The notes under the pieces were generated by a model. It was given only the letters and a program-made list of their open reading frames with translations. It made no database searches and was not told the origin of the DNA. The translations under genes were made by a program, and so were the position numbers. Of a stretch of DNA of 64,000 bases, positions 30 to 42,190 are shown piece by piece (within the stretch, counting starts at the first letter, position 1; every line of letters starts with the position of its first letter). Origin of the DNA: Alteraurantiacibacter aquimixticola (GTDB lineage Bacteria > Pseudomonadota > Alphaproteobacteria > Sphingomonadales > Sphingomonadaceae); assembly GCF_004965515.1 (NCBI RefSeq), contig NZ_SSHH01000004.1:340599-404598 (forward strand), read 5' to 3'.

Positions 30-58
30 CTGGATTGCGTCGCTTCGCTCGCAATGAC
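30..58. repeat. REP-like palindromic repeat at the nadC 5' end
   Basis: A 29-bp element begins CTGGATTGC and ends GCAATGAC. Its inner arms ATTGCG (34-39) and CGCAAT (50-55) can pair. A 9-base GCAATCCAG at 4-12 is the exact reverse complement of 30-38, so a larger hairpin is also possible. The outer ends CTGGATT and AATGAC are the same as those of the repeats flanking the GIY-YIG gene near 9.2-9.55 kb. It resembles short dispersed palindromes that I recall from sphingomonad genomes; that is memory, not a search. Confidence 0.65.
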
Positions 59-9160: not shown

Positions 9161-9174
9161 GGTTCACTCCCAAC

Positions 9175-9201
9175 GTCATTCCCGCGAAGGCGGGAATCCA
9201 G
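9175..9201 (+). repeat. Left 27-bp inverted repeat of the GIY-YIG unit
   Basis: The element contains ATTCCCGC (9178-9185), the loop GAAG and GCGGGAAT (9190-9197), an 8-bp perfect hairpin. It is flanked by GTC and CCAG. The whole 27-mer is an exact reverse complement of the copy at 9527-9553. Confidence 0.9.
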
Positions 9202-9214
9202 TAGCGATTTAGTT

Positions 9215-9526
9215 ATGCCGCGCGATTTCCAGCCAGCGGTCTACCTGCTCACTTCGCGACGCAATGGCACGCTCTATATCGGCGTGACTTCCAACCTGCT
9301 CCAGCGCATCGCCCAGCACCGCGAAGGAACTTTCGACGGTTTCGCCAAGCAGCATGGGTGCAGGATCTTGGTCTGGTACGAGAGCCACGCCACGATGGAG
9401 AGCGCGATCAGGCGCGAAAAGCAGTTAAAGAAATGGAACCGTGCCTGGAAGATGCGGCTCATTGAGGAAGCGAACAGGCCGTGGCGCGATTTGGCCGCGG
9501 ACTTTGGGTTCGAAGCCTTGCACTGA
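9215..9526 (+). CDS. GIY-YIG nuclease-domain protein between inverted repeats
   Basis: The 103-residue protein is essentially one GIY-YIG domain (UPF0213/YhbQ-like). It shows Y10 in VYLLTS, YIGVT at 21-25, the catalytic-type Arg31 in NLLQRIAQH, and the metal-binding-type Glu68 in RREKQLKKW. The family normally nicks or cleaves DNA. The gene fits exactly between two perfect 27-bp inverted palindromic repeats: the left one ends 13 bp before the ATG and the right one begins on the base after the stop. No strong Shine-Dalgarno sequence precedes the ATG. The arrangement suggests a nuclease that recognises or moves its own palindromes, but this is inference. Confidence 0.88.
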   Translation: MPRDFQPAVYLLTSRRNGTLYIGVTSNLLQRIAQHREGTFDGFAKQHGCRILVWYESHATMESAIRREKQLKKWNRAWKMRLIEEANRPWRDLAADFGFEALH

Positions 9527-9553
9527 CTGGATTCCCGCCTTCGCGGGAATGAC
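9527..9553 (-). repeat. Right 27-bp inverted repeat of the GIY-YIG unit
   Basis: This is the exact reverse complement of 9175-9201. The 8-bp stem ATTCCCGC (9531-9538) and GCGGGAAT (9543-9550) has the loop CTTC. It starts immediately after the TGA of the GIY-YIG gene. No obvious target duplication flanks the pair. Confidence 0.9.
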
Positions 9554-9727
9554 TTTGTACTACTTTCCTACAGCCCTAACTCCCCCCAGTCCGGCGCGCA
9601 TGACCCGGCACCCTGCCCTCCCCGCGCCACTTTCAGCAAGCGCGCATGGGACGGGCGGGTTTTTAGCCGCAGGACAGTGCTCCATGTGCTCCACCCCTTG
9701 AAAACAAAGGGGTTTTGCGAAGACCGG

Positions 9728-42080: not shown

Positions 42081-42190
42081 GCCGCAAGGCCGAACGGCCG
42101 CCCGCAGGTGCCCCGCACCCTGAGCTTGTCGAAGGGGAAGGGAATAGCGCCGAGGACCGCGCGCCCGGATGGGCGTGCGGAAGTCAAACA
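42081..42190 (+). repeat. Structured repeat, copy 2
   Basis: It contains GGCC-GAAC-GGCC (42088-42099), a GGTGC-CCC-GCACC hairpin (42107-42119), and the 10-bp stem with GGAT loop that is identical to copy 1 in the 30 bases 42151-42180. The first hairpin differs from copy 1 by a compensatory G-C to C-G change. The middle part carries a separate element (42116-42138). It is located between the convergent xthA and cell-wall hydrolase genes. Confidence 0.8.
42116..42138 (+). repeat. Common dispersed palindrome nested in repeat copy 2
   Basis: The segment CACCCTGAGCTTGTCGAAGG resembles a widespread short alphaproteobacterial repeat that I recall. It sits in the middle of copy 2, where copy 1 has the GGGCAG/CTGCCC hairpin, which suggests an insertion or replacement. 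Confidence 0.55.

Follow-up and report, generated by a model that had tools for sequence, protein, structure and literature searches.

The window analysed here, a stretch of 64,000 nucleotides from a contig of Alteraurantiacibacter aquimixticola, contains on its forward strand at 9215-9526 a small gene, located from the open reading frame list and by Pfam, which encodes a single-domain GIY-YIG nuclease of 103 amino acids. The gene stands between two perfect, inverted 27-bp repeats, each forming an 8-bp hairpin. The left palindrome, which we designate class A (dRS3/CGTC-1), occupies 9174-9201 on the forward strand (27-bp repeat, 9175-9201) and reads CGTC-ATTCCCGC-GAAG-GCGGGAAT-CCAG in full, i.e., a CGTC tag, the 8-bp stem ATTCCCGC, a GAAG loop and a CCAG tail facing the gene. 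The right palindrome (9527-9553, reverse strand) is of the same class in inverted orientation and carries the tag AGTC, not CGTC. Thirteen base pairs separate the left repeat from the ATG, and the right repeat follows the TGA directly, its first base being one past the stop codon. Gene, repeats and spacing had been claimed in a preliminary description of the DNA made from its letters alone, and the coordinates and folds agree with it. With 97% identity, the inverted match between the flanks extends to 32 nt (9171-9202 and 9526-9557).

As single-stranded DNA, both palindromes fold into an 8-bp stem with a 4-nt loop, at -8.9 kcal/mol on the left and -8.7 kcal/mol on the right (z-scores -5.2 and -4.7), and 0 of 200 shuffles folded equally well. 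A third palindrome of the same design but of another class, class B (GTCATTGCGAG...CAATCCAG), lies outside the unit at the edge of the window (31-58, reverse strand) and folds more weakly (z -2.1). The observation in the preliminary description that the outer bases CTGGATT and AATGAC are shared with this repeat (given there as 30-58) holds. A motif scan of the whole window returned these three repeats (31-58, 9175-9200, 9528-9553), against an average of 0 in 20 mononucleotide-shuffled windows.

In Pfam, the protein matched a single family, PF01541 (E=7.5e-18; 65 bits, cut-off 22.6), covering residues 8-80, and no NCBIfam family matched at E ≤ 0.001. Residues Y10, Y21, G23, R31, H35, E68 and N87 are near-invariant (99-100% across 124 aligned proteins). 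Among them, Y10, Y21, R31, E68 and N87 fit the Tyr, Tyr, Arg, Glu, Asn pattern of the GIY-YIG superfamily, and we take these five to be the catalytic residues. The AlphaFold2 model is confident (pLDDT 94.7), and the solved structures that it matches first are 1zg2 (Foldseek E 9.5e-4), 1ywl and 1yd6. UPF0213/YhbQ-like proteins and the GIY-YIG domain of UvrC have the same fold, but their structures are only 25-27% identical to the window protein over the aligned region, and we know of no palindrome-linked turn, as discussed below, that has been described for them. The position of the gene, which is intergenic and framed by palindromes and whose neighbours differ in the loci examined, is not that of a homing endonuclease of a group I intron or intein.

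By design and sequence, the window palindromes are CGTC-tagged REPs, and the window version is the dRS3 repeat of Neisseria. In the accessible text of the survey by Di Nocera, De Gregorio and Rocco (2013, PMC3733652), CGTC-tagged REPs have a CGTC tag (with TGTC and CCTC as variants), an 8-9 bp stem that almost always starts with AT, a loop of 4-5 and a tail that is mostly CCA; head-to-head dimers predominate, the distribution is biased towards Alphaproteobacteria, and CGTC-1 of Neisseria is dRS3. The neisserial dRS3 pattern is given as ATTCCC(N8)GGGAAT in what is available of PMC3898611, and the core of the window repeat fits it. The window repeats resemble this description in tag, lengths of stem and loop, CCA tail and head-to-head dimers, bar the AGTC tag of the right copy. 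Copies are many: the core ATTCCCGCNNNNGCGGGAAT occurs 19 times in the genome (3.43 Mb in five contigs), 18 times exactly and once with one mismatch, and 0 times when reversed as a control. The accessible text states that CGTC REPs “apparently lack a dedicated transposase”, that transposase genes near such repeats are few and fortuitous, and nowhere in it does the term GIY-YIG occur (PMC3733652); here, in contrast, the classes examined adjoin GIY-YIG genes.

Outside the window, framed GIY-YIG genes, for which the preliminary description had proposed to search related genomes, were found in quantity, with palindrome sequences that differ between loci. We compiled 129 loci, five from the genome itself, 109 from 199 sampled genomes of the family and 15 from named genomes; the 109 come from among the matches listed, 29 given directly and 80 picked mostly from the top with their flanks unseen. 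Framing was scored as the best local match between the 200 nt upstream and the reverse complement of the 200 nt downstream, with a threshold of at least 14. An inverted pair framed 99/129 loci vs 1/126 offset controls and 5/645 shuffles before near-duplicates were removed, and 96/125 non-redundant loci vs 1/122 offset controls afterwards, so that 29 of the 125 are without such a pair under this score. Left out of the non-redundant set were L055, which duplicates L027, the near-identical proteins of L123 and L066, and L069, a 47-aa fragment. L027, in the family genome G104, and L055, in Parerythrobacter lacustris, are one locus at 100% identity, an agreement that puts the window's family close to that genus. 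The offset and shuffle controls rule out chance symmetry. A flank-swap control, whose 95% point only 19/45 loci exceeded, was set aside because the loci share palindrome classes, which inflates the control.

The hairpins themselves give a similar picture. Stems with a score of at least 8 were present in 138/258 near flanks vs 20/252 offset flanks, and the tag-stem-tail motif in 161/258 flanks (82 upstream and 79 downstream of 129 genes) vs 1/234 offset windows. Palindrome sequences vary from locus to locus, mostly within one design of GTC tag, stem, loop and CCA tail, and framed examples also exist in other proteobacteria and in Nonlabens. Both sides carried the motif at 66/129 loci and neither side at 34, as counted with a motif finder that tolerates a mismatch in the stem and includes the end of the gene; it replaced a stricter one, which had given 50 (36 inverted) and 36, respectively. 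Among the 66 two-sided loci, 56 are inverted and 10 direct, and in 63 the left and right classes agree (shuffled mean 12.7, maximum 23). Palindromes scattered through genomes combined with gene flanks that are never inverted had been named in the preliminary description as an outcome that would speak against a self-mobilising nuclease; scatter occurs, and the flanks are inverted.

A GIY-YIG profile search of the window's own genome returned five small genes, besides a long open frame that we read as UvrC. Four repeat classes adjoin the five small genes, one class per gene: dRS3 at the window gene, GTCATTGCGAG at L008, CATGCCAGC/CATCCCAGC at L009 and the CTGAGCTTGTCGAAG type at L006 and L007. 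The framing score was passed by the window gene (30), L007 (29) and L009 (16). L008 (12) is flanked left and right by class B repeats that do not make a clean inverted pair. L006 (8) falls below the threshold because its open frame extends beyond the right repeat; its domain is surrounded by inverted arms of 41 nt (83%).

Palindrome class goes with the protein, above all with one short segment. In 73/95 loci, the class is shared with the closest protein neighbour that differs by over 10% (shuffled mean 16.2, maximum 31). Residues 75 and 73 hold the most class information among all alignment columns. Together with residue 74 they occupy the turn that links helices 61-73 and 76-86 in the AlphaFold2 model, and in the window protein, where this putative palindrome-reading turn is Lys-Trp-Asn, its codons lie at 9431-9439 (forward strand). 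Scored first on the data in which it was discovered, with class labels assigned here and protein relatedness controlled in part, the code gives equal classes in 150/171 pairs of proteins that are less than 65% identical and agree at residues 73-75, vs 354/3668 pairs with differing residues. The column pair 73/75 ranks first of the 4,898 pairs tested, each common to at least 100 protein pairs (0.86, baseline 0.13), and residues 73-75 rank first of 96 adjacent triplets common to at least 40 protein pairs (0.86; next 0.52, median 0.18). L055, L069, L006, L007, L059 and unclassed loci are omitted from these residue statistics, and L123 also from the two rankings. KWN, KWR and KWE turns go with CCCGC stems, KWK with CCTGC (9/10), AGS with ATTGCG, and RWH and NWH with CTGAAC (19/20).

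Of 20 further loci held out from this analysis, 12 encode a turn seen before, and eight of these have a palindrome of the predicted class by the gene, including those of Neisseria gonorrhoeae, Azospirillum and Aeromonas. The matches are of class A (L191, L206, L207, L241), class B (L202 and L194, the latter assigned by a 13-nt match only), class F (L193) and class E (L197). L209 and L198 turned out to be of another class, each prediction having come from a single earlier locus; a framing pair was not found at L196 and L208; dRS3 repeats begin 177 nt downstream of L208. For the turns outside the code, the CTGAGC type stands at one of two GWS genes, no palindrome was found at the two KWP genes, and four rhizobial RWY homologues (L240, L242, L243, L244) share the palindrome ATCCTCGGG(CTTGA)CCCGAGGAT, possibly a new class. 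The gonococcal homologue is 67-68% identical to the window protein, has the KWN turn and lies among 16 dRS3 repeats within 3.3 kb; the closest ones are 7 nt downstream of the stop codon and about 110 nt upstream of the start codon. At the level of sequence, a partnership between nuclease and palindrome is thus demonstrated by their positions, by the agreement of classes and by the linkage of residues 73/75 to palindrome class.

The unit of palindrome, gene and palindrome (9174-9553, forward strand) also looks mobile when genomes are aligned. Between the window unit and the unit L191 of a congener, which sit at different genomic places, homology is confined to 9174-9553 of the window, at 77% (1439-1818 of L005 against L191). 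In a count covering loci with inward-facing palindromes, 127/239 directed gene-spanning alignments, from 24/39 queries, end no more than 8 nt from both outer palindrome ends; of the remainder, 38 extend beyond the left palindrome and 26 beyond the right one by over 100 nt, as inherited loci do, and still others terminate before reaching the palindrome ends. Next to purD, the gene is missing from all 39 other loci, 36 of which are informative since L154, L187 and L189 hold less than 200 nt past purD; comparison of the purD-adenosine kinase intervals, which the preliminary description had advocated, is thereby in line with insertion in the window genome. A match to adenosine kinase is present in the fetched stretch after purD in 11/39 loci. 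In the nearest relative (purD 90%), seven bases lie between the purD stop and the point where homology resumes, and the resumed stretch starts nine bases after the right palindrome in the window genome. In Azospirillum lipoferum, a relative is located between sufB and sufC, and between L006 and its congeneric counterpart L190 the GIY-YIG gene is inverted within collinear flanks. A phage origin was considered and dropped, with no match in 50,697 phage records.

The palindromes also occur away from the gene. In the genome, an exact class A core marks 15 gene-less sites, 12 of them inverted doublets and three single; the doublets have their tags outside and tails inside, with starts 29-64 bp apart. 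As in the CGTC superfamily, head-to-head dimers thus predominate. In ten of the 12 doublets, the partner arm carries paired changes that keep the stem (ATCCCC/GGGGAT, ACCCCC/GGGGGT), and of the other two, one has a one-sided stem change and one a change in the tail only. Doublets consisting of two other arms would be missed, because the sites were found by the exact ATTCCC core; a looser pattern added two single matches without a partner, C2:567047 and C2:270688 (two mismatches). Doublets are often unequal, ATTCCC/GGGAAT being combined with ATCCCC/GGGGAT and both stems paired (L001-L003, L011 at 4748, L013, L015-L017).

This arrangement recalls the RAYT/REPIN systems, in which likewise one enzyme gene lies between inverted, tagged palindromes that occur elsewhere as scattered inverted doublets, and in which one genome may hold several sets of enzyme and palindrome. 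RAYTs are HUH tyrosine transposases acting on GTAG-tagged repeats, and their cleavage and recombination activities were demonstrated in vitro (PMC8266576, in the part accessible). The window system departs from them in both respects: its tag is CGTC and its sole domain GIY-YIG rather than HUH (Y1), with GIY-YIG also ranked first in the fold search. It is therefore a system that works like RAYT/REPIN yet stands outside RAYT membership, by enzyme class and by tag. The analogy with a different chemistry had been drawn in the preliminary description and gains support from framing, class matching, residues 73/75, unit-limited homology and the purD site.

We read the window unit as a GIY-YIG counterpart of RAYT/REPIN, whose nuclease would recognise its own hairpins, probably in single-stranded DNA, the folded hairpin being the substrate in RAYT/REPIN and by analogy the likely one here. 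On the evidence assembled above, 9174-9553 is probably a minimal mobile unit, a GIY-YIG gene placed between inverted copies of its own recognition hairpin, a CGTC REP of the dRS3 type. In such a unit, the nuclease would bind the folded hairpin once the DNA becomes single-stranded, on the lagging strand or during repair or transformation; the turn at 73-75 would read the stem near the loop, and the conserved fold the common GTC/CCA ends. Cleavage would take place beside the hairpin, and two cuts at inverted hairpins could release or expose the segment between them, be it the gene or the spacer of a doublet, which host repair or the enzyme itself might then place elsewhere. The gene-bearing unit would be the autonomous form of the element, and doublets its REPIN-like, non-autonomous form. 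The insertion step is the weakest link of this mechanism. GIY-YIG enzymes hydrolyse DNA and we know of no strand transfer by them, so integration would need a host route or a further activity. A more far-reaching version, in which CGTC REPs at large are traces of a GIY-YIG class of transposons whose enzymes excise and insert hairpin-bounded single-stranded segments chosen through residues 73 and 75, is put forward tentatively and appears rather unlikely to hold in full. To our knowledge, a re-addressable, transposase-like GIY-YIG system of this kind would be the first.

The gonococcal homologue in its array of 16 dRS3 repeats (67-68% identity, KWN turn) suits a second explanation, namely that the gene is not mobile and its product serves the host by cutting repeats in incoming or exposed single-stranded DNA, which would limit or shape transformation and recombination. 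The palindromes would then be genomic addresses, and the framing would stem from selection or from local deposition of repeats. A precedent is Ssn of Neisseria and relatives, a small, single-strand-specific GIY-YIG nuclease with a single domain like the window protein and probably of the same family, in which case the kind of enzyme is not new. Work on Ssn from 2025 (Nature Communications) reportedly showed that it cleaves single-stranded DNA at a repeat and influences transformation. A host-serving role of this kind is a serious possibility, to which we give somewhat less than even chances: homology limited to the unit looks like a mobile element, the insertion beside purD was seen in the window genome only, and one genome holds several paralogues with different palindromes. 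The two roles are compatible, as a mobile unit can be co-opted.

Copy numbers and repeat positions across genomes bear on a further explanation, in which another enzyme (a host HUH transposase, or a phage integrase as at neisserial dRS3) or recombination moves the repeats and the GIY-YIG gene is a passenger. In favour of the main reading, the class A core was present in 75/138 family genomes with a detected protein vs 11/61 without (Fisher 1.2e-6). Genomes from which a class A unit was fetched hold a median of 11 copies (15/19 with at least 5), and those from which only other classes were fetched a median of one (10/52 with at least 5). Some genomes, however, hold many copies while the protein was undetected at E ≤ 1e-5 (G177 36, G032 13, G018 9, G136 7, G015 6); since these five have 6-36 copies, the repeats can persist beyond the gene or rely on some other factor, as a passenger gene would lead one to expect. 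Doublets of several classes at the same sites point the same way. They occur inside glyS, in frame in the window genome, and at the glyQ-glyS junction, where 22/30 congeneric loci (40 genomes searched, the window's included) have no insert (35 nt), which also speaks for a mobile unit, and eight carry one: class A in two, class C in one, the CTGAGC type in four and another doublet in one. Across congeners, different classes are thus found both in the glyS interior and at the junction (L011 at about 3480 and 4748; L210-L239), suggesting hot spots in common or replacement. Relative to the empty form L225, the insert of L215 is flanked by 12-nt direct repeats, TGAGCGACTTCC, which resemble a target duplication, but selection for keeping the stop and start codons may explain them. 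Moreover, dRS3 is an integration target of a filamentous phage according to the accessible text of PMC3898611. We nevertheless consider a passenger gene improbable: palindrome class would then not track residues 73/75, nor would framing be expected at 96/125 loci with examples as far afield as other proteobacteria and Nonlabens, and links between CGTC repeats and transposase genes are few and fortuitous in the available part of PMC3733652.

That the palindromes act as transcription terminators or mRNA hairpins, with a regulatory or chance symmetry, is strongly disfavoured and in our estimate very improbable: hairpins of this kind are intergenic and could act in RNA, and the right repeat follows the stop directly, but only three T's (TTTG) and no long T-run come after the tag of the right hairpin, the two sides share their class at 63/66 loci with inverted pairs at 1/122 offset controls, and doublets occur without any gene.

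Within the literature searched, the reading as a mobile unit and the two-residue code both seem new. Among the papers listed in a search whose coverage of subscription titles was small, none connected GIY-YIG enzymes with REP or dRS3 repeats, and the terms GIY, nuclease and transposase are absent from the accessible text of RepRanger (2025, PMC12306157). For the CGTC superfamily, dRS3 included, the 2013 survey, as far as its text is available, left the spreading enzyme open (PMC3733652), and the GIY-YIG nuclease is a candidate for it. What is offered here is a minimal 380-bp unit together with a two-residue rule for hairpin choice. If the reading is true, a RAYT/REPIN-like lifestyle has been reached by a second chemistry, and with this rule single-strand nucleases could be paired with hairpin targets.

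Two minor observations remain. In the plasmid collection, NZ_CP119140.1 and NZ_AP026896.1 are chromosome-sized (2.2 and 4.9 Mb) yet filed as plasmids. At position 42120, the window contains a CTGAGCTTGTCGAAG motif, the core of the class that adjoins the GIY-YIG genes L006 and L007.
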